Shown here piece after piece: positions 6,725-22,211 of a stretch of DNA of 24,570 nucleotides. The position numbers were made by a program, and so were the translations under genes. The notes beneath the pieces were generated by a model, which saw nothing but the letters and a program-made list of their open reading frames with translations, was not told where the DNA came from and searched no databases. The DNA comes from a virus: IMG/VR virus record IMGVR_UViG_3300044729_001201, positions 1 through 24,570 of that record; one strand, given 5' to 3'. Numbering within the stretch: the stretch's first letter is position 1; each line of letters starts with the position of its first letter.

Positions 6725-7297
6725 ATGAAGACAGTTGGAGATAAGTTAGAACAATTTGTTATCACTGGCGTGAAGCCAGGTGCTCTCACACCTGACAATG
6801 CCTTTCAAAAGATTACAGAAAAATGTTTTGAAGGTAAGTGGAAGGTCATCGTTTACTATCCAAAAGATTTTACTTTTGTTTGCCCAACAGAAATTGTGGC
6901 ATACGATAAATTGAACAAGGACTTTGCGGACCGTGACGCAGTTCTTCTCATTGGCTCTACAGACAATGAATTCTGCAAACTCGCATGGAAGAATGCGCAT
7001 GAAGGTCTCAAAGCAACTACCTCTTGGTTCTTTGCTGACACTGCACGCAGTGATGAGTGGCATGATGAGGAACAAGGTCTTGTTCAACAACTTGGTGTTT
7101 TCTACAAGCCAGCAGGTGCTGCACTTCGTGCAACATTTATTGTTGACCCAGAAAATGTCATTCAGCATGTTACTGTGAATAATCTAAATGTCGGTCGTAA
7201 CGCTGATGAGACACTTCGTGTTCTTGATGCGCTACAGACAGGTGAACTTTGCCAGTGCAATCGTCAGGTTGGCGAAAGCACTTTGAACGCTGCTTAA
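6725..7297 (+). CDS. Peroxiredoxin (AhpC/TSA family)
   Basis: 190 aa with a strong AGGAG. The peroxidatic motif is DFTFVCPTE (Cys53), with Pro46 upstream and later R135 (ALRATFIVDP), as in typical thiol peroxidases. The C-terminus carries GELCQCN (Cys176, Cys178), a candidate resolving pair reminiscent of AhpC forms with a C-terminal CxC. The enzyme would reduce H2O2, organic peroxides or peroxynitrite, needing a host thioredoxin- or AhpD-type reductant; no partner is encoded here. Full family length, no truncation. It has its own leader, so it may be expressed strongly. As an auxiliary metabolic gene it could protect the infected cell from oxidative stress. Confidence 0.92.
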   Translation: MKTVGDKLEQFVITGVKPGALTPDNAFQKITEKCFEGKWKVIVYYPKDFTFVCPTEIVAYDKLNKDFADRDAVLLIGSTDNEFCKLAWKNAHEGLKATTSWFFADTARSDEWHDEEQGLVQQLGVFYKPAGAALRATFIVDPENVIQHVTVNNLNVGRNADETLRVLDALQTGELCQCNRQVGESTLNAA

Positions 7298-7301
7298 TAT
7301 C

Positions 7302-7406
7302 ATGAAGGCTCTGCGATTTTTAAAGGAATGGGGGATTGTGTTAATTCCGTTGATTTGTTTCGGAGCATTTTGGTTGTTAATTACTTTTACAAATATACTT
7401 TACTAA
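7302..7406 (+). CDS. Single-pass membrane peptide, 34 aa
   Basis: ATG 7302 lies five bases after the peroxiredoxin stop. The 34-residue product has a basic N-terminus (MKALRFLKEW) followed by one hydrophobic helix (GIVLIPLICFGAFWLLITFT), the standard N-in membrane peptide. The helix could also act as an uncleaved signal. Its stop overlaps the Shine-Dalgarno of the EF-hand gene, suggesting coupling. Function unknown; no Shine-Dalgarno is strong here. Confidence 0.5.
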   Translation: MKALRFLKEWGIVLIPLICFGAFWLLITFTNILY

Positions 7407-7417
7407 AGGAAATCAAA

Positions 7418-7666
7418 ATGAAGAAATTAATTCTAGCATTCGCTCTCGTTTCTGCACCAGTATTGGCGCAAGATCGCGTAGCACAATATGACTTTGACAA
7501 GGATGGCAAAGTTTCCTTCGATGACATTAATCGTTACTGCACACTTACAAAGTCACTCTTTGATAATGCTGATAAGAACGGTGATGGTTTTTTGAACAAT
7601 TCAGAAATGCGCACAGCAAAGAGATATCTCTTCAGCCGCTGTGAAGCAGAAAAGCAGAATGCCTAA
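7418..7666 (+). CDS. Secreted EF-hand calcium-binding protein
   Basis: ATG 7418 follows AAAGGA by 7 bases; 82 aa. Residues 1-17 are a signal peptide (MKKLILAFALVSAPVLA, cut before Gln18). Two canonical EF-hand loops follow: D25-F-D27-K-D29-G-K-V-S33-F-D-D36 and D52-K-N54-G-D56-G-F-L-N60-N-S-E63. The first ends in Asp rather than Glu at position 12, which usually lowers Ca2+ affinity or allows Mg2+. Cys41 and Cys74 could pair in the periplasm. A phage protein sent to the periplasm to bind Ca2+ is uncommon. Roles in envelope stabilisation, adsorption blocking or lysis control are inference. Confidence 0.8.
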   Translation: MKKLILAFALVSAPVLAQDRVAQYDFDKDGKVSFDDINRYCTLTKSLFDNADKNGDGFLNNSEMRTAKRYLFSRCEAEKQNA

Positions 7667-7719: not shown

Positions 7720-7878
7720 ATGGAAGACGTGAAACAAATTAAATGTGGCTGTGGACGTAGTCCAACTGGTTACTGCATTGGCTTGCATGCAATGACAAAT
7801 GAACAATACAAGGCTCATTTGGAACAACAGCAAAAGCAACTCAACGAACAGACAAAGCCACAATTCTTGATTGATTAA
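7720..7878 (+). CDS. CDGSH-like Cys/His mini-protein, 52 aa
   Basis: ATG 7720 follows TTAGGAG (7707-7713) by 6 bases. The 52-aa product has the block CGCGRSPTGYCIGLH (about residues 9-23). It matches the C-x-C...C-x-G-x-H spacing of CDGSH 2Fe-2S domains except that one residue and the Pro-x before the third Cys differ. Three Cys and one His would ligate a 2Fe-2S cluster, or alternatively zinc. The remainder is a Gln/Glu-rich helix (NEQYKAHLEQQQKQLNEQ). I recall very similar mini-proteins in aquatic T4-like phages. It ends where the tmRNA acceptor piece begins, so protein and RNA probably share a transcript. Confidence 0.65.
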   Translation: MEDVKQIKCGCGRSPTGYCIGLHAMTNEQYKAHLEQQQKQLNEQTKPQFLID

Positions 7879-7879
7879 T

Positions 7880-8162
7880 GGTAGTGAACCTCTGACTAAA
7901 GGTGTTCTGGACTCGGGTTCGACCCCCGACATCTCCACCAAATGCCCATCACCTCTTCAGCAATGTACGTGGTGGCTATCTTATGGGGATGAATTTGGCT
8001 TCGACAGGGCAAGTAATAAACCAAAGGCTACCAGTGAGGCGACTGACTTAATCAGCGCAAAAAACGTAAATGCAAACGATGATTCATTTACACCTATGGC
8101 TCTTGCTGCTTAATAAGCACACTGAGTACAAAGAGTTGACCGCTCGGTAACAGAAAGGTCTG
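7880..8162 (+). ncRNA. ssrA: Circularly permuted two-piece tmRNA
   Basis: The acceptor piece comes first: T-stem TCGGG/CCCGA (7913-7917/7925-7929) with loop TTCGACC, acceptor strand CATCTCC (7930-7936), discriminator A and encoded CCA (7938-7940). An intervening segment (7941-7984) precedes the coding piece, which begins GGGGATG (7985-7991) and TTTGGCTTCGACAGG. GGGGATG pairs with CATCTCC over 7 bp and includes the G3-U70 alanine-identity wobble. CAGGGC (8005-8010) pairs with GTTCTG (7904-7909) as part of P2. The resume codon is probably GCA 8072-8074, by alignment with the E. coli context; the tag is ANDDSFTPMALAA followed by TAATAA (8111-8116). The reversed order is the known permuted form of alphaproteobacteria, cyanobacteria and some betaproteobacteria. 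It would rescue stalled ribosomes and tag proteins for ClpXP. Outer ends are approximate. Confidence 0.93.
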
Positions 8163-8195
8163 GGTTGGTGGTGCGAACCACCAACCTTTTCTTTC
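8163..8195 (+). terminator. Rho-independent terminator of the tmRNA
   Basis: Perfect 10-bp stem GGTTGGTGGT (8163-8172) and ACCACCAACC (8177-8186) with a GCGA tetraloop, then TTTTCTTT. It closes the tmRNA transcript and separates it from the SleB gene. Confidence 0.92.
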
Positions 8196-8220
8196 CACTG
8201 CAATAATGGAGACTCGAAAC

Positions 8221-8853: not shown

Positions 8854-9876
8854 ATGCGTATCATTGAAGATGTGAAGTTAGATTATAAAGATGTTTTGAT
8901 TGTTCCTAAAAGATCTACAATAGAATCTCGTAGCCAAGTAAAGTTAGAAAGAACTTTTACTTTTCGAAGTGGCAATTCATGGTATGGTGTTCCAATCATT
9001 GCGGCTAACATGGATGGTGTTGGTGCGTTTGGAATGGACGATGAACTAAACAAACATCGTTGCATGGTTGCTCTCACAAAACATTATAAAGACGTTGAGT
9101 TAATTAACCATTTCCAAAAGAAACTGAATAGCACAATCTACTCTCTTGGTATCAGTGATAAAGATGTTGAAAAGTTTAGTAACGTTTTCAGCATTGTTGG
9201 ACAGCCACACATGCGCGTCTGTATTGATGTTGCGAATGGTTACACACAACAGTTTGTAGAATTCGTAAAGCGTTTTCGCGATCGTTATCCTTACATTGTG
9301 CTCATGTCGGGAAATGTTGTCACACCAGAGATGACTGAAGAATTAATTCTCGCAGGTGTAGACGTTGTGAAGGTTGGTATTGGTCCTGGTTCTGTTTGTA
9401 CAACACGAAAGAAAACAGGTATCGGCTACCCGCAGTTGAGTGCGGTTATTGAATGTGCAGATGCTGCTCATGGTCTCAAGGGTCATATTATAGCGGACGG
9501 AGGGTGTACCGTTCCTGGAGACGTGGTGAAAGCATTTGCTGCGGGAGCCGACTTTGTGATGCTTGGTGGAATGCTTGCTGGACACAAAGAAGGTGGAGCA
9601 TCTCCTTTTGGTGATAACAAGTTCTATGGCATGAGTTCTGACACTGCCATGGATTTACATAATGGTGGTGTGGCAAACTATCGCGCCTCTGAAGGCAAGA
9701 CAGTTGAGATTCCATATCGTGGTGAAGTCAGTAGAACAATGAAAGATATTTTAGGTGGTTTGCGTTCAGCATGCACCTATGTTGGAGCAAGTGAATTGAG
9801 GGAGTTGAGTAAGCGCACGACATTTGTTCGCGTGACTCAACAATTGAACAATTCCTTGAATGCATATGAGATCTAA
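8854..9876 (+). CDS. guaC: GMP reductase
   Basis: 340 aa, full length, with TGAGGT just upstream of ATG 8854. The active-site loop is [20 protein letters not shown] with catalytic Cys182. [34 protein letters not shown] and the C-terminal [18 protein letters not shown] are typical of GuaC. Absence of the CBS-domain insertion argues for GMP reductase over IMP dehydrogenase. The enzyme converts GMP to IMP with NADPH and releases ammonia, shifting guanine toward adenine nucleotides. For an A+T-rich phage this could rebalance the pool during replication; that is inference. The adjacent replication genes fit such a role. Confidence 0.93.
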
Positions 9877-11694: not shown

Positions 11695-11720
11695 AGGGGG
11701 ACTTCGGTCCCCCTTTTTTT
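11695..11720 (+). terminator. Rho-independent terminator of gp32
   Basis: AGGGGGAC (11695-11702), TTCG loop, GTCCCCCT (11707-11714) and a run of Ts to 11720. Very stable UUCG hairpin with a U-tract on the plus strand only. The T-run overlaps the stop codon of the convergent minus-strand gene. Confidence 0.95.
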
Positions 11721-13134
11721 ATCCGCGAAAGCCCGTATACTGCGGATGATTTGAGTCAGCCATTGATAAGCGATTGAATGTGTTATCATCAGTAAACACT
11801 TTGCCTGTTCTTGAATCGCCTTGTGGTCTTGTTGTTATTGTTTTAGAATTATTGATCACAATTGGTTGTGATGGTTTATCTTCTTGAGTTGTTTTCATCA
11901 TATCAGTAATTGCCATCAATTGATCTTTTTCTCTTTTAGCATTTAAGATCATGTTTGCATCTTGACTCATTGGACTTAATGTATCAGATTCTTTTCTTAG
12001 ACTGAGATTTTTTGGACTTGTGATTGAACTAAAGTCTCCTGCTTCTTCTCTGCGATTATATTCAGACAAAACTTCGCCAGCTCTTCCACCGCCATAGAAG
12101 TCGGCATAGAGTGCTTTGAATCTTTCCCATGGATCATTTCCATATTCATATTCATCTCTTCCGAGATCGGGACCCTGCCCCTCTCCTTCTCGATATCCAC
12201 TTACATCGACAGAATCAATTTCTTCATCTTCATCTCCAGCCAATCTTCCTCTCACATCAATCGATTCTAATTCATCTAGATCATCTTCTTCTTTGGCACC
12301 AGCCAGAGTTCCAGAAACATCAATTGATTCGATTTCTTCAAGATCATCTTCTTCTAATTCAGGAGAAACTTTTGTATATGTCACGTTTAATTTGGAAAGT
12401 TTGTAGTCCTCTGGGGCAGCATCTTGATTATCGAACATCTCGCTGACAACATCATTAAATTCCTGAGACACAGCTGGTATTTGAGCAGTATCTGAAGTTG
12501 TATCTGCCTCGGTAATAGGTTGGTTAATTTCAATTGGAGTATATCCTGCACCCATACCAACGCCAGAAAAGTCGAGTCCAGTCAGATTTAAATTTCTTAA
12601 TGTTTCTAATGTGCTGCTATCTAATCCAAATTGACCCAATCCAGCCAATGTACTATCTTCAGTTGTTTGAAGTGCTGCTGCAACATTTTTGATTCCAGAA
12701 TCTTCTGTCAATCGAGTCGTATTGATTCGTTTGGCACTTTCTTGATCTTCCTGAAGTTTTGATATAAATTCCTCAGCCTGATCCATTGACATAATTGCGT
12801 CTGCAGTAACATCTCCAGGTTTGGTGTATGTTGGTTCGCTCTTTTCAATCTGATCTTGAATCCTTTGATTCAACGATCCTGCAATTGAATTGTTGATTGA
12901 TTTTGTATCGCTGGAGACAACTTTCTTGACCATGTCGCCTGCATCATCTCTAAAGGTGTTGCCAATTGTGGCTGCGCTTGGAAATGAGGCACCAAATGGA
13001 CTTCCAAATGGACTTCCGAAAGGATTTCGGAAAGGACCACCACCAAATCTAGATGAGAAATCGTTCTGATAGAAATCGCCTCTATCTGCAAAATTGCTGC
13101 GAAGTCTTTCGATGTTAGATACGCCAATTGCCAT
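11719..13134 (-). CDS. Acidic repeat-bearing structural protein at tape-measure position
   Basis: 471 aa; ATG overlaps the stop of the 52-aa ORF upstream. Residues 1-60 are Phe/Gly/Pro-rich (RFGGGPFRNPFGSPFGSPFG). A helical, Gln/Glu-rich part follows. Residues about 260-315 hold three copies of the ESIDV motif (EEIESIDVSGTLAG, DELESIDVRGRLAG, EEIDSVDVSGYREG) in acidic spacers, and the C-terminal third is polar and probably disordered. No family recognised. In many myophages the gene after the tail-assembly chaperones encodes the tape measure (gp29 in T4), and its place after gp26 and a chaperone-like ORF fits. But it lacks long coiled coil or membrane helices, so the call is tentative. It is the last gene of the minus operon. 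Confidence 0.6.
   Translation of the reverse strand: MAIGVSNIERLRSNFADRGDFYQNDFSSRFGGGPFRNPFGSPFGSPFGASFPSAATIGNTFRDDAGDMVKKVVSSDTKSINNSIAGSLNQRIQDQIEKSEPTYTKPGDVTADAIMSMDQAEEFISKLQEDQESAKRINTTRLTEDSGIKNVAAALQTTEDSTLAGLGQFGLDSSTLETLRNLNLTGLDFSGVGMGAGYTPIEINQPITEADTTSDTAQIPAVSQEFNDVVSEMFDNQDAAPEDYKLSKLNVTYTKVSPELEEDDLEEIESIDVSGTLAGAKEEDDLDELESIDVRGRLAGDEDEEIDSVDVSGYREGEGQGPDLGRDEYEYGNDPWERFKALYADFYGGGRAGEVLSEYNRREEAGDFSSITSPKNLSLRKESDTLSPMSQDANMILNAKREKDQLMAITDMMKTTQEDKPSQPIVINNSKTITTRPQGDSRTGKVFTDDNTFNRLSMADSNHPQYTGFRG
12191..12350 (-). repeat. Three ESIDV peptide repeats in the 471-aa protein
   Basis: Three tandem units of about 16-18 residues with the core E-[IL]-[ED]-S-[IV]-D-V-[SR]-G, separated by runs of Glu and Asp. 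Same core as in gp54 and gp48, but the Arg-rich spacers there are replaced by acidic ones (LAGAKEEDDLD). Confidence 0.85.
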
Positions 13135-13292
13135 TATCGTTTTCTCTGTAGTTGTCGTTCTCTTATCTTATCATTTTCTTCTTTGACGTGTTGCGCCACT
13201 AAAGAAACATACATTGCTCTTTCCCAAGGAATCATTTGCTCAAGTTCCGTTAGGCTATATCCATGATGTTGCATCAATGCAAAATTAGTCAT
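13134..13292 (-). CDS. Tail-assembly-chaperone-like small protein, 52 aa
   Basis: On the minus strand ATG at 13292 to TAA at 13134-13136; the stop overlaps the next start. The product begins MTNFALMQHHGYSLTELEQM and continues IPWERAMYVSLVAQHVKEEN plus a basic end (DKIRERQLQRKR). The SLTELEQMIPWERAMYV element is typical of the short second ORF of tail-assembly chaperone pairs (lambda GT, P2 E' type). It follows gp26 at 32 bases. In many phages this ORF is made by frameshift from the upstream frame; no slippery sequence was established here. Confidence 0.65.
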   Translation of the reverse strand: MTNFALMQHHGYSLTELEQMIPWERAMYVSLVAQHVKEENDKIRERQLQRKR

Positions 13293-13324
13293 GAAGTATG
13301 TTTTCAAATTCTCATTACGAAGGC

Positions 13325-14047
13325 TTATACGAAAAAATCGAGGAGACCCTCCAGCCTGATGGTGTGATTCTTACCACACTTCTTACAGACTAATTCATTT
13401 TCAAATTTCAAAATAGGCATGTCAAGAAAAAACTTTTTAATCTTTCGATATTGTTCAGTTGTTAAGTTATTCACAAACTCATCAAACTCACCTTGCTGCA
13501 TTTCATCAATTCTATAAACCTGATTCTCATCAAAAAGATATTCTGTACATTGTTTAAGAATCTCAGTCGGTGCATCTTTTGAATTCAGCTTCTCAATCAA
13601 TACTTTCGAAACACTGATTGTCGGATAATTCAATTTAATACCAACGCCATTTGATAACTGAATCATATTCTGGACTGGCTTGTGATCAATTGCTACTTGT
13701 AGCAAGTCCACATTCATCTCCATACGACCTTTACATCTCTTGTTCTCTGCAACGACGTTTTCGCAAACGTATTCTAGAGTCACAACTTCGCCGATTGATC
13801 TTGCTCTTAAATTTAAGAACAAATACTCAATCTCATATAAAGGTAATGATTCAACATCAATATCTTCTAACACACAATTCTTCACAATTTGCTTAATGGC
13901 ATCTAAACTTGTTTCATAATCTTTTGACTCAAGTGCCATTAAAAGAATCTTTTCTTCTTTCACCACGAATGGTCTAAAAGTAATTTCTTTATCTAATGAC
14001 TCAATTCTAAGTTTATATGTCGGCAAATCAATTTTTGGTATAGCCAT
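13325..14047 (-). CDS. 26: gp26-like baseplate hub/assembly protein
   Basis: 240 aa with GGAGTG ahead of its ATG. The N-terminus IDLPTYKLRIESLDKEITFR, then PFVVKEEKILLMALES, matches the T4_baseplate family (Pfam PF12322, gp26 in T4-like cyanophages). Later, IKLNYPTISV and EYLFDENQVYRIDEMQQGEF are also typical. A C-terminal LVCKKCGKNHTIRL, with Cys spacing like half a zinc ribbon, pairs with an earlier Cys-bearing segment (YVCENVVAENKRCKG). In T4, gp26 is needed for hub assembly. Gene order next to a chaperone-like ORF suggests it may be an assembly chaperone rather than a stable part. Confidence 0.8.
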   Translation of the reverse strand: MAIPKIDLPTYKLRIESLDKEITFRPFVVKEEKILLMALESKDYETSLDAIKQIVKNCVLEDIDVESLPLYEIEYLFLNLRARSIGEVVTLEYVCENVVAENKRCKGRMEMNVDLLQVAIDHKPVQNMIQLSNGVGIKLNYPTISVSKVLIEKLNSKDAPTEILKQCTEYLFDENQVYRIDEMQQGEFDEFVNNLTTEQYRKIKKFFLDMPILKFENELVCKKCGKNHTIRLEGLLDFFV

Positions 14048-14065
14048 AATTCACTCCATAAGTTA

Positions 14066-14851
14066 TCAGCCACCTCGTCTTCTTCTTCCAGTGACGTCAA
14101 TACTTTCTAATATTTCGGTTTCTCTTCTAGTTCCTCTCACATCAATACTTTCTAAGACTTCACTTCCATCTCCACGTCGTCTTCTTCCATTCACATCAAT
14201 GCTATCTAAGACTTCTCTATCGCGGCGATTTCCAACAACATCAATGCTCTCTAAAACTTCTGGCGCATCATCATCACTTCTCTCATATGCGTCAGCATTC
14301 AAACTTCTCCAGTAACGATATGAGAATGTGGCGTCAAGTCTAATTGGTTCTTGTTCTGCCCACGATCCTTTGATTTCACCAAGATTAATTGGAAACACTT
14401 CGTAAAGTCTCATGCCATATGAGACTCGATTACCATCCTCAGAAATTTGAAGAATGTCTATTTCTCCAATGTAATCATCGCGATATCTAAAATCGTATTT
14501 GTTTTCTTTTGGGTTTACAAAGTTTAGCCATGCGTCGAAGAACATTTTCTGACGCATGTCATCATCCACAATAAATGAAATCGTTACATCTTTGTAATCG
14601 CTGCGAACTGGAACGTTCATCGGTGGACCACCATAGTATAAGTCGGTGGTCAATAGTTCTTGTCCAGGATAACTTACAGACTCTGCATAATAAGTAAGAT
14701 AGTTATCCTTTTCTTTATAATTCAGAATCTCAACAAGCTCTGCTGGCGGCTTGATATTGATGGCAATTCGATTGAGTCTTGAGAAGCCACTCTTTCTGGC
14801 TTGAGAAAGGAAGTTGCTGATGTTCAGCGTTCTTTGCGGATTTATTGCCAT
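14066..14851 (-). CDS. 54: gp54/gp19-like tail-tube initiator with ESIDV tail
   Basis: 261 aa; start overlaps the upstream stop (TAATG). Residues 1-190 look like a tail-tube-fold protein: YAESVSYPGQELLTTDLYYG, NVPVRSDYKDVTISFIVDDD, FFDAWLNFVNP, YGMRLYEVFPINLGEI. Such features fit T4 gp54 (tube initiator) or gp19 (tube); baseplate neighbours favour gp54. Residues about 197-261 are an added tail of four ESIDV repeats (EVLESIDVVGNRR, EVLDSIDVNGRRRR, EVLESIDVRGTRR, EILESIDVTGRRRR) running to the C-terminus. I know of no such tail in T4 gp54. Being Arg-rich and flexible, it may bind DNA, a partner or the host surface. Confidence 0.75.
   Translation of the reverse strand: MAINPQRTLNISNFLSQARKSGFSRLNRIAINIKPPAELVEILNYKEKDNYLTYYAESVSYPGQELLTTDLYYGGPPMNVPVRSDYKDVTISFIVDDDMRQKMFFDAWLNFVNPKENKYDFRYRDDYIGEIDILQISEDGNRVSYGMRLYEVFPINLGEIKGSWAEQEPIRLDATFSYRYWRSLNADAYERSDDDAPEVLESIDVVGNRRDREVLDSIDVNGRRRRGDGSEVLESIDVRGTRRETEILESIDVTGRRRRGG
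14069..14270 (-). repeat. Four ESIDV peptide repeats at the gp54 C-terminus
   Basis: Units of 15-18 residues with the core E-[VI]-L-[ED]-S-I-D-V-x-G-x-R-R and spacers of Arg, Gly and Asp. The codons of the copies are similar, so the units may have spread by duplication. The copy at 14238-14262 is 23/25 identical (inverted) to 15860-15884 in gp48. Confidence 0.92.
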
Positions 14852-15399
14852 TAAGCGTAGCTCCTCATGTTTTGTACAGGAAGAAATATTGCTGTTTCCC
14901 AGTTATTCGGCTCAATATAAATTAACGGGGAAACCATTTGATCGTACAAATATCTTCGCATACAGTCCTGAACAGCGGAGAATCTACTCATATTTTTCAA
15001 TAGATCGTATGAGAGATTAAATCTTGTAGAATCGTCATATTTATCGTTGTTTAAGAAGATTGTTAGTCCATCCAGCATTGTCATTCGCATTCCTGGATTT
15101 AAGAAATGGAAATTGATTCCAGTGAATCCATCACCTGTTACTGTCGTTGGAATCACTAATGGAAACTCATCCCACTGTGGAAGTCGCTCTTTGGTTAGAG
15201 GATCATATCGAAACATGAACATACGACCAACTGCAGCAAACGGAGTGACGCGCTTCGGATCGTTTAAGACGTTTGAACGATTTGTTGGGATCTTTGTTTT
15301 AGCAATCTGTTGTTGGATGAACGCTTTTGCTTCTTCAGTTCGGGCTTTGATACCCTTCTTCGCCATCTCTCTCGTAATTTTTTCGAGTAATGCTGCCAT
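14851..15399 (-). CDS. Conserved structural-type protein, unknown function, 182 aa
   Basis: Start overlaps the stop of gp4. The product has a helical N-terminus (KGIKARTEEAKAFIQQQIAK) and a conserved-looking core: GRMFMFRYDPLTKERLPQWD, EFPLVIP, GFTGINFHFLNPGMRMTMLD, DDSTRFNLSYDLL, and a C-terminal WETAIFLPVQNMR. I recall a similar protein near neck and baseplate genes in T4-like aquatic phages but cannot name it. Its position between gp4 and gp54 suggests a neck, head-completion or baseplate role. Confidence 0.65.
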   Translation of the reverse strand: MAALLEKITREMAKKGIKARTEEAKAFIQQQIAKTKIPTNRSNVLNDPKRVTPFAAVGRMFMFRYDPLTKERLPQWDEFPLVIPTTVTGDGFTGINFHFLNPGMRMTMLDGLTIFLNNDKYDDSTRFNLSYDLLKNMSRFSAVQDCMRRYLYDQMVSPLIYIEPNNWETAIFLPVQNMRSYA

Positions 15400-15833
15400 T
15401 AGATTCCTAGATGGTCCTCTGTGATTACGTTAAACTTCCAATTTCTATCTTTACAATACTCTGCGGCGGCTTTCCATTTAGCCTCATTTACACCCCAGTT
15501 TGCGACTTCTTGGATATACTGTCTGGTGACTCGACTCTTCATTTTAGGAGGGGCTGCTTGACTCTTTGGTTTAACTTCTAGAATCAGACTTTCTTCAATG
15601 CCTTGTCTATTCTTAACTTTGACAAAGAAGTCTGGGAAATAACGATGCCATCTTCCGTCCACAGGCGATAAATATGGAATAATAATCTCTTCATTTGACC
15701 ATCCAATTACGTTCGGGTTTTCATCCAAGTGCACCATTACTCGGCGCTCCCACAACGATCTATACCAGATGTTCTTATGGTCACCTAAATATTTACTGAG
15801 GTTTTTTGGACTAAATTTTCCGCTATAAGCCAT
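15399..15833 (-). CDS. 4: gp4 head completion protein
   Basis: 144 aa from the ATG at 15833; a TTG one codon upstream is not needed. The pattern NIWYRSLWERRVMVHLDENP, VIGWSNEEIIIPYLSPVDGR, RYFPDFFVKV, LILEVKPKSQ, RVTRQYI and the end NWKFNVITEDHL matches gp4/head-completion proteins of T4-like phages, which have a TnsA/endonuclease-like fold. The motif Glu (LWERR), Asp (YFPDFF) and Glu-x-Lys (EVKPK) is the PD-(D/E)XK signature, so nuclease activity at the head vertex is possible. T4 gp4 (with gp50/gp65) is required before tail joining. It is the first gene of the minus operon. Confidence 0.85.
   Translation of the reverse strand: MAYSGKFSPKNLSKYLGDHKNIWYRSLWERRVMVHLDENPNVIGWSNEEIIIPYLSPVDGRWHRYFPDFFVKVKNRQGIEESLILEVKPKSQAAPPKMKSRVTRQYIQEVANWGVNEAKWKAAAEYCKDRNWKFNVITEDHLGI
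15667..15674 (+). promoter_or_regulatory. Candidate plus-strand late box GATAAATA
   Basis: NATAAATA match antisense within gp4; a second weaker box, CCTAAATA, lies at 15784-15791. The gap between the divergent genes is only 22 bases, so a late promoter for gp48 would have to lie in this antisense DNA. Short motif, low certainty. Confidence 0.25.
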
Positions 15834-15837
15834 CAAT

Positions 15838-15845
15838 TATTTATA
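15838..15845 (-). promoter_or_regulatory. T4-late-like TATAAATA on the minus strand
   Basis: Exact late octamer reading toward gp4, only four bases before its ATG. Transcription would begin about at the start codon, implying a leaderless message, or the box may be chance. It fills most of the 22-base divergent gap. Confidence 0.4.
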
Positions 15846-15855
15846 GGAAATTTCA

Positions 15856-17058
15856 ATGGCAGAAGTATTAGAGAGCATCGATGTATCAGGAAATAGACCT
15901 GGTGTTGATAGAAGAGGCGATGAAGTCCTTTCAGATATTTCTGTTGAGGGTCGTCGACAAGGTGGAAACGGTCCAATTGATGGAGAGAGACTAGAAGGTA
16001 TTGATGTGGTTGGTCGCTCTAGAAGAAAAGGTGAATCAAAAAATCTATTTTATCCAGAAAGACTTAATGATGCAAAATCAGACATTAAGAATGCAATTCG
16101 CTTCACGATTTATTCTCAAACAAGATCTTATCAAGACGATCCAGGCGATACGCCTTATCTCAGAGAAGTTCCAGATCAATACATCGGTGGAGCAAGAACT
16201 TTCCCAATCAGCGTTGGTGGATTTGCAACCGCATTCGGTTTGAGGAGCAGCCTATCAGGAATTTTCGGTGCTGGAGGTGTCGGCAGTTTGGTTGAAGATT
16301 TGGCAGGTATTGCCACAACTGGTCTTGACTATTTCACTGGCGGCGAAAGAACGAATTACGGCAGAAGAACTCTGCAATTAGATAGCAGCGTGACTCTTTA
16401 CATGCCTGATACGATGGTGAATCAAGACAAGCACGACTATCAGCCAATTTCAATCAACCAAGCTGCTGGTAGAGCAGGACTTTACACTGCAGGATTCCCA
16501 GTTGCGGTGGGCGGCACAGGTTCTCCATTGGGCAGAACAGAAGTGCTTGCTGAACTAGCAGGAAGAGCGGGTATCTTCGGAACACGTTCCACTGAAGCAG
16601 TATTGGCTGGATTGGGTTATGCATTAAATCCGATGCTTGAAATGTCATTCGGTGGAACACAACCAAGAGCGTTTATGTTCCAGTTTAGATTTGCACCAAG
16701 AAATTATAAAGAAGCAGAAGAAGTCTTGAAGATTATTAAAACACTCCGCTTTCACTCTCATTCAGAAAGCACAGGTGGCAATCTTGATCCGATCACACAG
16801 GGTAGTGGAACACGCTATTTGATTCCACCAAATCACTTTGAAATTCAATTCCTCCGCAAAGTGAACAATCGCTTTGAGGAAAATCTTGCGATGCCAAGAA
16901 TCACGACTTGTATGTTAGCATCTATCAATACTAATTACGCTGCGCAGCTTGATACGTTTGCGACATTCAGAGATGGCAAGCCAGTTTCCATCAGCCTTGA
17001 TCTAGAATTCGTTGAAAGCGTCATTCTTACTAAAAACGATATTAAGAAGGGATACTAA
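15856..17058 (+). CDS. 48: gp48-like baseplate tube cap with N-terminal ESIDV repeats
   Basis: 400 aa; AGGAA lies 6 bases before ATG 15856. Residues 2-58 carry three ESIDV-type repeats (EVLESIDVSGNR, EVLSDISVEGRR, ERLEGIDVVGRSRR). The rest resembles gp48: SSVTLYMPDTMVNQDKHDYQ, a long Gly/Ala-rich stretch, ALNPMLEMSFGGTQPRAFMF, QFRFAPRNYKEAEEVLKIIK, LRFHSH, and RYLIPPNHFEIQF with a beta-rich C-terminus. In T4, gp48 sits between the hub and the first gp54/gp19 ring. The repeat-bearing head is an addition, mirrored by the tail of gp54 on the opposite strand. Confidence 0.78.
   Translation: MAEVLESIDVSGNRPGVDRRGDEVLSDISVEGRRQGGNGPIDGERLEGIDVVGRSRRKGESKNLFYPERLNDAKSDIKNAIRFTIYSQTRSYQDDPGDTPYLREVPDQYIGGARTFPISVGGFATAFGLRSSLSGIFGAGGVGSLVEDLAGIATTGLDYFTGGERTNYGRRTLQLDSSVTLYMPDTMVNQDKHDYQPISINQAAGRAGLYTAGFPVAVGGTGSPLGRTEVLAELAGRAGIFGTRSTEAVLAGLGYALNPMLEMSFGGTQPRAFMFQFRFAPRNYKEAEEVLKIIKTLRFHSHSESTGGNLDPITQGSGTRYLIPPNHFEIQFLRKVNNRFEENLAMPRITTCMLASINTNYAAQLDTFATFRDGKPVSISLDLEFVESVILTKNDIKKGY
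15859..16030 (+). repeat. Three ESIDV peptide repeats at the gp48 N-terminus
   Basis: Begins one codon after the start. The first unit (EVLESIDVSGNRP) is nearly identical to gp54 units, the second (EVLSDISVEGRR) is shuffled, and the third (ERLEGIDVVGRSRR) is diverged, so decay increases away from the N-terminus. Spacers are rich in Gly, Asp and Arg. Confidence 0.9.
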
Positions 17059-17961: not shown

Positions 17962-19290
17962 ATGAAAGATGCAAATTCGGGTGGTAGAACTTCTGGCGAA
18001 GGTTCGTTTTCACCGTATGATTATTCGCTTTTAGAATTAAAACTTATCAATGCTTTTGGAACTAACATTGATATTGATTTAATCTATGGCGAAATTAATC
18101 TTTACGAAGATTTATTCAGCAATGTGATCAACGGCGATATTCTTCTCACTGACTCGAATAATCTTTTCAATCTATTGAACATGCATGGAAACGAATTTAT
18201 TTCGTTATCGTTTAGCACTCCAGGAATGGCGCGATACCAGAAGATCTTTAGAATTTTTAAAATTAGCGATTATAGTTTGCGTGGAACATCAAACGCGACC
18301 TTCAAGATTCATTTCTGCTCTGAAGAATTTCTATTGAATCAACAGTATTATATTTCTAGATCATTTAAGGAAACAAGATTATCCGACGTTGTTAAGATTA
18401 TTGCTAGAAACATATTAAAGATTCCAGAAACAAAATTACCAAATGAATTAATCGAAGAATCAGCCCTATTATTAAATCCTGAAAAGAATCCATTAATTGT
18501 TCCTAATTTAAAACCATTCGAAGCAATTAATTGGATTTCTTCGTTTGCATTGAGTAAGTTAGATTTATCTCCAGGGTTTTTCTTTTTCGAGACCATTAAT
18601 GGATACTCATTTAAATCCTTGAGCACTCTATACAATGCACCCATAAAGAAAACGATTTCATACTCTCCAAAGAATGACGACTTCTTTGAGTCGGTTGGTT
18701 CCAAACACGACAAATTAGATGAAATGGAATTCAAACAAGTGTTTGATGTTCTTGATAGCATCAACAACGGTGCATATGCCTCTGAATTACTCAAACTCGA
18801 TGTAATGAATCGCACAACTGAGTTTGAACAGTTTGGATCAAATAGATCTACTATTAAAACACTAAATGATTATCTGCCGTTCAATTATGCTAAAAATAGA
18901 TTAGGGAACTCGTTGAATCAGGCTTCGGCATATGTCAAGATGTTTCCAAAATTCCAGGACAACCTAGCAAGTCAGTGGTTGTTGATGCGCGCAGCAAGAA
19001 TTGCATTGCTCAACAGCACTCGACTTCACATTGATATTCCTGGCGATAGTTCGATCTCTGTTGGTGATATTGTCAATGTGAAGATTCCAAAGAATGACGC
19101 ACAAACAGATTCGAATAACATTACATTAGACCCAATCATGTCTGGCAAATATCTTATCACTGGATTGAGACATCAATTAGTTGATGATAAATATTTTTGC
19201 CATGCACAGTTGTGCAAAGACTCAATGAACTTAAATCTCAATTATAGCCCACCATTTAATTCTGGTTGGAATTTGGCAATTAACTCATGA
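17962..19290 (+). CDS. 27: gp27-like baseplate hub protein
   Basis: 442 aa, one base after gp53. Features fit the gp27/gpD-type hub: LYEDLFSNVINGDILLTDSN, then FKIHFCSEEFLLNQQYYISR, RLSDVVKIIARNILKIP, KPFEAINWISSFALS, FFFFETINGYSFKSLSTLY, and a C-terminal LHIDIPGDSSISVGDIVNVK with GKYLITGLRHQLVDDKYFCH. These are the hallmarks of phage hub rings that hold the central spike. It immediately precedes gp5 with an ATGA overlap, as expected for interacting hub partners. The gp27 symbol is by structure and position rather than close similarity. Confidence 0.75.
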   Translation: MKDANSGGRTSGEGSFSPYDYSLLELKLINAFGTNIDIDLIYGEINLYEDLFSNVINGDILLTDSNNLFNLLNMHGNEFISLSFSTPGMARYQKIFRIFKISDYSLRGTSNATFKIHFCSEEFLLNQQYYISRSFKETRLSDVVKIIARNILKIPETKLPNELIEESALLLNPEKNPLIVPNLKPFEAINWISSFALSKLDLSPGFFFFETINGYSFKSLSTLYNAPIKKTISYSPKNDDFFESVGSKHDKLDEMEFKQVFDVLDSINNGAYASELLKLDVMNRTTEFEQFGSNRSTIKTLNDYLPFNYAKNRLGNSLNQASAYVKMFPKFQDNLASQWLLMRAARIALLNSTRLHIDIPGDSSISVGDIVNVKIPKNDAQTDSNNITLDPIMSGKYLITGLRHQLVDDKYFCHAQLCKDSMNLNLNYSPPFNSGWNLAINS

Positions 19291-22211
19291 AATTTAAAAA
19301 GAATTTTATTGGACAAGACGGCTTTCAGTGGTGGATTGGCGTTGTTGAAGACCGCGATGATCCCGAAAAGTTGGGTAGATGCCGTGTGCGCGTTTTTGGC
19401 ATTCACACAGATGATCTGGTCGCAATCCCAACAGAAGATTTGCCATGGGCTATCTCAATTTATTCAGTTAATAATAATGATGCCTTTGCTGCGCCGAAAG
19501 AAGGCGAATATGTTTTCGGCTTTTTCCTAGATGGTTCTTTCTGTCAATCACCTGCAATACTTGGTGTCATTCCTGGTATCAATCAACAAATTGCACCTGT
19601 GGCAAAGGGATTTGGTGATTTAAGAACCTCTAAAAAGATTAAAAATTCTCCAAAGAAACCAATTGCGATTGATTATCCTGAAGCACCTTCTGGTCAAGTA
19701 GATGCCATCAGCGGAAACATTATTAATGATGCTGTTGGTGTAGAGAGAGTTGCAAGAGATAACATTATTATTCACGTGCCACTTTCGCGTACTGCAAGAC
19801 CTTCGTATATTGAAGGAAACCTATTCATCGTTGGATATAACCACAAATTCACAGCACAAGAATTAAAGAAAGGTCATATTGATCTTTTGAACGGAGAACT
19901 AGTTCCAATTCTCGGAATTAATGGCGCGGATACTGAAATAACTGAAACTCAGGCTAGAGTTCTTTTAAATCTAGACATTGCCGCTGCAATCGAAGCTGCT
20001 CGTTCATCTATCGGCGAGGAAGGATGGGGTGGATTGAACGTTGCACAGAAGGCTGGATTAACATTGACAGCATATAATCTTGGTGCACAGGTCAACTTTG
20101 AGAAAGACGGTATTCGTTCTGCAGTGACTTCAGGTGATGTTGTTCGAGCAGCTCAATTATTGAGCACTAGTGCATTAAGATCACTAACTGGTAAGTATCT
20201 GCATAGTGAAAACATTCTCTCTCATGCTGCAGCAACTCTGTTCAAATCAATCCCTAAAACAGAAATTTTAACTGAACGAGCTGATGTAACAAAAACTCGT
20301 AACCCAGTTTCTGCTTCAGGCGCAGGCATCGGCGTACAGGTTCACGAAACGGATATTTCAACAGACGACAATGCAGATTCTTTAAAGTATCCACTACAAG
20401 AAGATATTGGTAAGCCATCCATTTCTGATCTTGCCACTAAACTTGGAAAAACAACACCTCAACGATATAGAGAACGTTCGGTGATCAGCGCAAATGGTGC
20501 GTTTGGAGAGTCTTGGTCAGAGCCAGCACCAGCATACGCTGCCGAATATCCATATAACAAAGTAAAGGAAACCGAATCTGGTCACATCTTTGAGATGGAT
20601 GATACACCAGGGTTTGAGCGAGTTCATTTGGCTCATCGTTCAGGCAGTTTTACCGAGTTTTATCCAAGTGGTTCGAAGGTTGAGAAAATTGTAAAGAACA
20701 ATTATAGAATCGTGATGAGCGATGATCATCTGTACGTTGCTGGAAAAGTGAATATCGTTCTTGAGTCAAATGCACACATTAAGGTTGTTGGCGATTGTTT
20801 CTTGCAAGTTGAGAATAATCTAGAAGCATCTGTTAGTGGAAATATGAACGTTGCGATTAACGGCGGCTTCAACGTTAAAGCAAATACTCTTCACTTTGAT
20901 ATTGCTAACACATCAACAATTACAGCAAACAATCAGTATATTTCTATCGACGATAAACTTGTTATCAATTCAAACACATCAAACGTCACTACTGCAAACG
21001 ATTTAACGATATTCTCAGCAGCAAATCAATATTATACGACTGCAAATACAGTCTATCATAAGTCTAAGAATATTAAAATTGAATCTTCTGCAGACGTATC
21101 AATCAACTCAGCTGGAGTTGGTTACTTTACTACAACTGGAGTTTTAAATCTTAAGGGCGGCTCAACTCGTATCACTGGATCGACTGTTGATATTGACGGA
21201 ACATTAAATGCCACAACTACAAATATGAAGGCGACTGGAGCTGACTCCAATGGCGATACGCATCTACTTACCGTTGCTGGTGTCGGCGCTAATGCCGCTG
21301 CAAATGCTTATGCTTCTGTTTCGAGCAATTCTGCGATCGACGCTAATGTGGTTATCGATTTGTATTATTCAAGTAAGAAAAATCTCGATGAAATCGCAGA
21401 GACTTTAGAAATTACTGTCAAGCAGGTTCAAGAAGTATTAGATGCCTCTTCTTATTTAAGAACGCCAATCAAGAAAGGAACACCAACAGCTGCTCAGAAA
21501 TATCTCGAGCCAGATAAACTCGTACGATTGAGTGAAGAAATTAATATTGAAAACAATAGAAGTTTGGCAAACTATTTGGCAAATCCAGAAAATTACCGAT
21601 CTATTTACAGCAATGCAAAACGATTGATGCCGCCTATTTTAAGTTCTGGATCTGATTTGATTCTTAAAAATCAAGTCGGCGAGGATCTGATTGTCATTAA
21701 CGATTCAGCGGATATCACTCAGTGGTTTGAAAAGCAACTTCTATTAGCTGCCAATGGATACTGGAGAGAGTCTGGAGTGGATCTCAAGGGTAAACGACAA
21801 CCTTCAAATCCAAATATTCTCAGTCTATGGCGAAATCTTGGATTTATGAACGAGCCATGGAATATGAGCGATCAATCTAACTGGGCTATAGCATTCGTCA
21901 ACTTTGGATTGAAGCAAAACGGATATCGTTATGTGCAGACTCCAAATCCAAAGGACGTTGAAATTCGAATTGCGGATTACAGATTTAGTCGCGTTAATCC
22001 AGTTGACGCTCAACCTGGAGACGTTGTTCTCTGGAACAACGATCACGTGAACTTTGTTTATAAGAATATCAATGGAAATTTAACTTATATCGGCGGTTCG
22101 CAGCAACCAGATCCGCGGTTTGACGTTGCAGATACTCGCGTCGGAGATGTGTCTGTAGTTGGTAGTGGTGGTGCGCAAATTGTTACAATTCTCCGTCCGT
22201 CGAAGACATAA
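19287..22211 (+). CDS. 5: gp5-like spike/hub protein with lysozyme-like and CHAP-like domains
   Basis: 974 aa. Residues 1-100 are the gp5 OB-fold (WWIGVVEDRDDPEKLGRCRV, ILGVIPG). About 150-320 resemble a GH24 lysozyme (FIVGYNHKFTAQEL, ITETQARVLLNLDIAAAI, QKAGLTLTAYNLG), but the expected Glu next to His163 is Val164 and the Thr of TIG is Phe180. About 480-650 are short beta repeats as in the spike helix (VNIVLESNAHIKVVG). Around 687-721 a helix-turn-helix-like segment appears (NLDEIAETLEITVKQVQEVL). About 835-974 resemble a CHAP/TIGR02594-type peptidase (NWAIAFVNFGLKQNG, PGDVVLW, HVNFV) in which the usual Cys is Ala867 while His920 remains. So the spike seems to keep two hydrolase folds without full catalytic residues. 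T4 gp5 is 575 aa. Confidence 0.85.
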   Translation: MKFKKNFIGQDGFQWWIGVVEDRDDPEKLGRCRVRVFGIHTDDLVAIPTEDLPWAISIYSVNNNDAFAAPKEGEYVFGFFLDGSFCQSPAILGVIPGINQQIAPVAKGFGDLRTSKKIKNSPKKPIAIDYPEAPSGQVDAISGNIINDAVGVERVARDNIIIHVPLSRTARPSYIEGNLFIVGYNHKFTAQELKKGHIDLLNGELVPILGINGADTEITETQARVLLNLDIAAAIEAARSSIGEEGWGGLNVAQKAGLTLTAYNLGAQVNFEKDGIRSAVTSGDVVRAAQLLSTSALRSLTGKYLHSENILSHAAATLFKSIPKTEILTERADVTKTRNPVSASGAGIGVQVHETDISTDDNADSLKYPLQEDIGKPSISDLATKLGKTTPQRYRERSVISANGAFGESWSEPAPAYAAEYPYNKVKETESGHIFEMDDTPGFERVHLAHRSGSFTEFYPSGSKVEKIVKNNYRIVMSDDHLYVAGKVNIVLESNAHIKVVGDCFLQVENNLEASVSGNMNVAINGGFNVKANTLHFDIANTSTITANNQYISIDDKLVINSNTSNVTTANDLTIFSAANQYYTTANTVYHKSKNIKIESSADVSINSAGVGYFTTTGVLNLKGGSTRITGSTVDIDGTLNATTTNMKATGADSNGDTHLLTVAGVGANAAANAYASVSSNSAIDANVVIDLYYSSKKNLDEIAETLEITVKQVQEVLDASSYLRTPIKKGTPTAAQKYLEPDKLVRLSEEINIENNRSLANYLANPENYRSIYSNAKRLMPPILSSGSDLILKNQVGEDLIVINDSADITQWFEKQLLLAANGYWRESGVDLKGKRQPSNPNILSLWRNLGFMNEPWNMSDQSNWAIAFVNFGLKQNGYRYVQTPNPKDVEIRIADYRFSRVNPVDAQPGDVVLWNNDHVNFVYKNINGNLTYIGGSQQPDPRFDVADTRVGDVSVVGSGGAQIVTILRPSKT

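Follow-up and report, generated by a model that had tools for sequence, protein, structure and literature searches.

TonB-box-like peptide repeats in three tail-core proteins of a freshwater T4-like phage

Tail genes and their shared repeat

The window, by which we mean the whole 24,570-base stretch of DNA analysed here, is a fragment of a freshwater T4-like phage (an IMG/VR viral record). Genes on its minus strand encode a gp4-type head closure protein, a DNA end protector, a gp54-type tube protein, a gp26-type hub protein, and a protein of 471 aa (p471); those on its plus strand encode gp48, gp53, a tail protein, a gp5-type lysozyme, and gp25. Three of these proteins (gp54, gp48, and p471) carry arrays of one short peptide (Table 1).

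Table 1. Repeat-bearing tail genes of the window, their neighbour gp26, and the individual repeats.
Feature	Position	Strand	Basis or remark
471-aa protein (p471) in the tape-measure slot	11719..13134	-	Synteny, C-terminal signature; three repeats inside
Repeat p471-1 EEIESIDVSGTL	12304..12339	-	
Repeat p471-2 DELESIDVRGRL	12241..12276	-	
Repeat p471-3 EEIDSVDVSGYR	12190..12225	-	
gp26-type baseplate hub protein	13325..14047	-	PHROG_150, PF12322; without repeat (control neighbour)
gp54-type baseplate-tail tube initiator	14066..14851	-	PHROG_45 (1.7e-30); T4 gp54 profile match; tail-tube fold
Repeat gp54-1 EVLESIDVVGNR	14225..14260	-	
Repeat gp54-2 EVLDSIDVNGRR	14180..14215	-	
Repeat gp54-3 EVLESIDVRGTR	14126..14161	-	
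Repeat gp54-4 EILESIDVTGRR	14081..14116	-	
gp48-type baseplate tail-tube cap	15856..17058	+	PHROG_230 (1.7e-44, body 57-399); T4 gp48 profile; fold
Repeat gp48-1 EVLESIDVSGNR	15862..15897	+	
Repeat gp48-2 EVLSDISVEGRR	15922..15957	+	
Repeat gp48-3 ERLEGIDVVGRS	15985..16020	+	Orthologous to RLEGVVVTGSK of L016

The window's gp54 is a T4-type tail tube initiator: it has a homologous body (residues 1 to about 190; PDB profile match to T4 gp54, 1.9e-4), adjoins gp26, and lies in the gene order gp4-gp2-gp54-gp26. Its repeats are borne by a C-terminal tail (residues 196-261). The gp48 protein is a T4-type tail tube cap, with a homologous body and a gene located upstream of gp53; it matches the T4 gp48 profile (PDB, 0.0019) and, by Foldseek, baseplate-tail entries of phage KP1 and T4, and its repeats form an N-terminal head (residues 1-57) in front of the conserved body. 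AlphaFold assigned pLDDT values below 50 to residues 186-261 of gp54 and to most of residues 1-60 of gp48 (31-46 in the head), although alignments of 13-14 sequences are shallow and may account for part of this result.

The third protein, p471, matched no family among the PHROGs and Pfam models and had no match among phage isolates. By synteny, its slot is occupied by the annotated tape measure in HTVC008M and by a 742-aa unannotated protein in Melnitz, and a C-terminal signature (ENTFNRL...HP) is common to p471 and the 581-aa protein in the same slot of a 173-kb relative (G025). Judged from its position and this signature, p471 is probably a tape-measure protein, if a short one of only 471 aa that falls outside the PHROG and Pfam families. 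Its repeats occupy an acidic, probably flexible segment.

Each repeat spans 12 residues, with the consensus E-x-L-E-S-I-D-V-x-G-x-R. There are ten copies on the two strands (four C-terminal ones in gp54, three N-terminal ones in gp48, and three inside p471), in agreement with a preliminary description of this DNA. The pattern given in that description, E-[VIL]-L-[ED]-S-I-D-V-x-G-x-R-R, captures a real motif but is too strict for all ten copies, which have [ED]-x-[LI]-x-x-[IV]-[DS]-V-x-G in common; the trailing Arg is frequent, not universal. When a profile was built from the gp54 copies only, or from the gp48 copies only, all ten repeats were the top ten among 14,025 ORF positions of the window, and a profile of the p471 copies only gave nine of them the highest scores, with the tenth in 11th place. 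Most copies score higher than anything in 200 shuffles of the full ORF set; the weakest cross-protein copies equal that ceiling or fall slightly short of it.

The serine codons of the repeats are AGY in gp54 and gp48 and TCN in p471. This difference rules out recent DNA copying between the three genes and indicates that the copies are old and have been maintained at the protein level. The preliminary description held that copies in unrelated genes would speak against a tail-core motif; in a 108-kb relative (G020), strong copies occur only in the same three proteins, which hold the 11 best profile matches bar one chance-level match (9.6) elsewhere.

Repeat dialects and the receptor TonB box

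Relatives in IMG/VR retain the repeats in all three proteins, with three to five copies in gp54, two to four in gp48, and one to four in p471. Within one genome, the three proteins use a common dialect: ESIDVxG in the window, IDVIGR and IKVIGK in L008-type phages, and VVVTG and VTVTG in L015-L020 and L281. Orthologous gp48 units such as RLEGIDVVGRSRRK and RLEGVVVTGSKRKK can be aligned across dialects, RLEGIDVVGRS of the window's gp48 is the ortholog of RLEGVVVTGSK in a divergent relative, and the p471 units of relatives sit between the same flanking segments. Units of the divergent relatives further include LLGVTVTGTR and LESVVVTGRR in gp54, LEEVVVSGTR in gp48, and LDEVVVSGTR in p471.

In its VVVTG dialect, the repeat takes the classic form of the TonB box of TonB-dependent receptors, the peptide by which the energy motor of the cell pulls on outer-membrane transporters. 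TonB boxes are unordered segments, like the predicted state of the phage repeats. As for the host, a permuted tmRNA in the window is of betaproteobacterial type and supports a Gram-negative, betaproteobacterial host; compared with 399 genomes of one order, this tmRNA gave short partial matches only, and we therefore call the host no more than probably betaproteobacterial.

We drew a receptor set of 69 Plug-domain proteins from betaproteobacterial genomes (eight at first, with further ones added), slid a profile of phage units along each receptor, and counted a success when the best site lay 10-25 aa upstream of the Plug. With the repeats of the divergent relatives (the VVVTG clade), the TonB box was the best site in 37 of the 69 receptors, against 1.5 under uniform chance, 3 for the reversed motif, and a mean of 4.9 (maximum 18) for 100 column permutations. 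The window's ESIDV repeats alone placed the box first in 15/69 receptors (permutations: mean 3.5, maximum 14, with 0/100 as good), its IDVxG dialect scoring below the VVVTG dialect against receptors. The third phage dialect alone did so in 8/69, a number matched by 9/100 permutations and hence not above permutation.

The repeats resemble the TonB box in sequence and in dialect. The receptor boxes LQRVEVTGSRIR, LDEIKVIGSAEN, and LQEVKVVGKPEA have close counterparts in phage units, among them LESIDVTGRRRR and EEIKVIGKTQDD. Both kinds of peptide have a core [IV]-x-[VI]-[TSVK]-[GA], an upstream Leu, and a downstream basic residue, and the phage repeats may also lie in a flexible segment, as receptor boxes do. 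The short alternating hydrophobic core followed by Gly or Ala in the local dialect, by which a TonB box is recognized, is present in the phage repeats.

Their placement is different. Receptors have one box, N-terminal to an outer-membrane Plug, whereas the phage tail proteins have 3-5 copies that are neither N-terminal of a receptor Plug nor part of a bacteriocin: C-terminal in gp54, N-terminal in gp48, and internal in p471, with no Plug domain in any of the three. Because of this placement and the missing Plug, the repeats stand outside the receptor and bacteriocin families and are at most mimics.

In 11 bacterial genomes, VxV[ST]GTR had 13 DNA matches, no more than its backward controls; nine of the 13 are in frame and lead into a receptor, with the Plug domain immediately after the match in 9/9. 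The strict 30-base DNA pattern for LxxVxV[ST]GTR had no forward match in eight betaproteobacteria (one in the backward control), because the boxes of those bacteria mostly read VVVTATR or VEVTGSxIKR. An hmmsearch of the repeat profiles against PDB chains returned nothing significant and no TonB-dependent transporter, the 19-position profile being weak there.

Distribution of the repeats and of box-like peptides

The repeats are not present throughout the group. In L013 and L014, the gp54 and p471 units are degenerate and lack the Gly, and gp48 is devoid of units. G025 has no repeats, though it carries the same TonB-dependent receptor gene as G020 (see below); the T4-like isolates HTVC008M and Melnitz, unlike the window, have no repeat extensions; and phages of Porphyromonas, Flavobacterium, Cellulophaga, and Bacteroides, the isolated Bacteroidota relatives of one tape measure with a box, are without it. 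The trait is therefore optional. A tblastn search of the repeat arrays against phage isolates yielded no convincing relative and no repeat-bearing isolate.

The receptor in question is complete in G020 (834 aa, with a signal peptide, the box-like EPLEEVTITSIR, a Plug, and a barrel), and four further contigs, including one of 173 kb, encode it too. Phage-encoded TonB-dependent receptors are known from gut viromes (PMC8857322), and a pelagiphage also encodes a receptor of the TonB-dependent class (PMC10504331).

Across 2.9 million viral contigs scanned at the DNA level, V[TV]VTGTR occurred in 160 stretches and its reversed form in 166. The motif is thus not in general excess among viruses: its raw counts equal those of the reversed control, and only the protein classes differ. 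The scan contained 35 non-redundant in-frame ORFs with the peptide, two of which belong to the window's own clade; among the 33 others, PHROGs identified eight as tail tube or tape-measure proteins (L282 weakly), and none was seen among the 38 ORFs of the reversed control, where the inspection covered the strongest families plus ten members. A Leu or Ile three residues upstream of the peptide, as in TonB boxes, is present in 8/8 tube or tape-measure ORFs vs. 4/25 of the other ORFs (p = 3.6e-5).

The contig L350 has the gene order gp4-gp2-gp54-gp26 and a box, MADELPEVVVTGTREN, in gp54; no other protein of this contig, neighbouring tail genes included, scores above the cut-off. The box is N-terminal in the gp54 of L350, L256, and L249 and C-terminal in that of the window clade, i.e. 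the peptide has been retained though its position shifts.

Among the four other ORFs that have the upstream Leu or Ile, one resembles a receptor itself and two have several boxes.

A possible role in genome entry, and competing readings

We propose, at a probability of about 0.6, that the tail-tube core carries, in these repeats, arrays of TonB-box mimics that become exposed to the periplasm after contraction and recruit TonB during entry. In T4, gp48 and gp54 (six copies each) connect the hub to the tube and gp29 (three copies) lies inside it; after contraction, the gp5-gp27 complex and then the tube enter the periplasm (PMC3004832). The window's gp48 and gp54, and with them p471 as the putative counterpart of gp29, are comparable to the T4 proteins in their homologous bodies and gene order. 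The dependence of some phages on TonB is established as well (PMC11658791).

On the T4 model, box arrays would be displayed on flexible extensions of the gp48 and gp54 rings at the lower end of the tube and of the tape-measure-slot protein inside it; the T4 stoichiometry of 6 + 6 + 3 would give about 51 boxes per virion, at the tube tip. Sheath contraction would push this tip through the outer membrane and bring the repeat segments into the periplasm, where the C-terminal domain of the host TonB could bind them by beta-strand addition, as with the box of a TonB-dependent transporter or colicin. The TonB-ExbB-ExbD motor, driven by the proton-motive force, might then act on the tube or the tape measure, anchoring or pulling it, and so aid the last step of genome entry. 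A more general proposition, to which we give slightly less than even odds, is that contractile-tailed phages of TonB-bearing bacteria use the TonB motor directly, via boxes in tube-initiator and tape-measure proteins and without a transporter, to energize or anchor entry, and that related boxes recur in the tube and tape-measure proteins of unrelated phages.

Several known systems are akin to this arrangement in part. The pIII protein of filamentous phages binds the periplasmic domain of TolA, a TonB paralogue, during entry; in that case a minor coat protein binds through a folded domain, whereas the window encodes a peptide array in a contractile tail. Colicins, klebicins, and pyocins are foreign proteins that cross the outer membrane and present a TonB box in the periplasm (PMC11658791), an exposure that we infer for the phage repeats; unlike these toxins, which have one N-terminal box, the repeats are structural parts of an injection machine. 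Phages T1, phi80, and H8 need TonB and the proton motive force for entry, and act via a TonB-dependent receptor; the passages of that source consulted here make no mention of a box in their own tail proteins (PMC11658791). Searches of open full-text journal papers turned up no account of TonB boxes in the tube or tape-measure proteins of phage tails.

The preliminary description had correctly confined the shared peptide to three co-located tail-core proteins; the docking or cross-linking role that it suggested for the peptide fits the evidence less well than TonB-box mimicry. By that account, gp48, gp54, and the tape measure would bind each other or a common hub through a private repeat motif during tail assembly, which we regard as unlikely. 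The three proteins that hold all copies do meet at the junction of baseplate and tube (PMC3004832), these proteins have a dialect in common within a genome, and alternating hydrophobic residues could make intermolecular beta strands. Yet the gp54 of L350 bears the peptide in a contig with no other scoring protein, the same peptide is found in tape measures of other phages, its position in gp54 varies, the gp48 of L013/L014 has lost all copies while those of gp54 and p471 persist, and the match to the TonB box is left unexplained. A peptide that occurs alone and in variable positions is better explained by an external partner common to these proteins than by mutual docking. The next rival, and a less probable one than docking, combines both ideas: the repeats would act in assembly, and their likeness to the TonB box would be convergence on a generic strand-adding peptide. 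Such convergence is conceivable for a short, beta-prone core of alternating V/I followed by G and a basic residue, and the viral raw counts equal the reversed control, but column permutations and the reversed motif miss the TonB box, agreement extends to the TG, the Arg, and the Leu upstream, and the exact bacterial matches that are in frame prove to be receptors.

Two further readings have little to recommend them. Delivered boxes could occupy periplasmic TonB as a decoy, excluding superinfecting phages or bacteriocins instead of powering entry. Each virion would carry many boxes, several phages and colicins need TonB (PMC11658791), and relatives bring their own receptor as well; we nevertheless hold a decoy to be very improbable, as about 50 boxes per particle would presumably be too few for long saturation of TonB, and boxes fixed in tube proteins would not be released. 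Hardly any weight attaches to the idea of low-complexity linker repeats that have no specific partner and were amplified by replication slippage: copy number is variable, ranging from 3 to 5 in gp54, and disorder is predicted for the repeat segments, but the core is kept across relatives and in three separate proteins with different serine codons.

TonB was discovered via phage resistance; a phage with many boxes on the part of its tail that enters the periplasm would offer direct access to the question of what phages gain from TonB at entry. If true, this reading would assign a further role to the flexible termini of tube proteins and tape measures, regions that structures rarely resolve, and would provide a sequence signal for TonB use by uncultured phages. 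The repeat peptides can be synthesized, mixed with TonB, and mutated.

Receptor genes and further TonB-box-like units

Full-length TonB-dependent receptors are encoded not only by the 108-kb relative G020 (see the table) but also by the relatives' contigs L181-L185, and the 173-kb relative G025 carries the receptor gene and lacks the repeats. Proteins with several TonB-box-like units each, of which TELPPVTVTGERESVEFPQVTVTGQRDPVYELDPVTITGTREP is an example, are found in three other viral contigs; none of the three was matched in a PHROG search.

Features of the window and of the viral contigs compared with it
Feature	Location	Size	Basis
AhpC-type peroxiredoxin	window 6725-7297		
Small protein, signal-peptide-like start, EF-hand-like DxDGDG motifs	window 7328-7666		by eye
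Permuted (two-piece) tmRNA, phage-borne	window 7826-8204		Rfam beta_tmRNA, tmRNA_permuted
IMP dehydrogenase/GMP reductase-like protein	window 8854-9876		sequence
gp5-type hub lysozyme	window 19287-22211	974 aa	PHROG match
Full-length TonB-dependent receptor (Plug, barrel)	L172:9793-12294 (G020); also L181-L185	834 aa	
Proteins with several TonB-box-like units	L337:9197-11710, L259:1095-3602, L291:5868-7148	427-838 aa	

Other genes of the window

The tmRNA encodes the tag ANDDSFTPMALAA, and its comparison with 399 genomes of one betaproteobacterial order yielded nothing beyond short partial matches. The gp5-type hub lysozyme has a C-terminal extension (residues 659-974) that lies outside the PHROG match. 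The IMP dehydrogenase/GMP reductase-like protein, the gene for which adjoins tail genes, is common to the window, G020, and G025. The peroxiredoxin is about 60% identical to proteobacterial enzymes; its closest relative (81% identity) is from a short contig binned as Bacteroidota, which may itself be viral.
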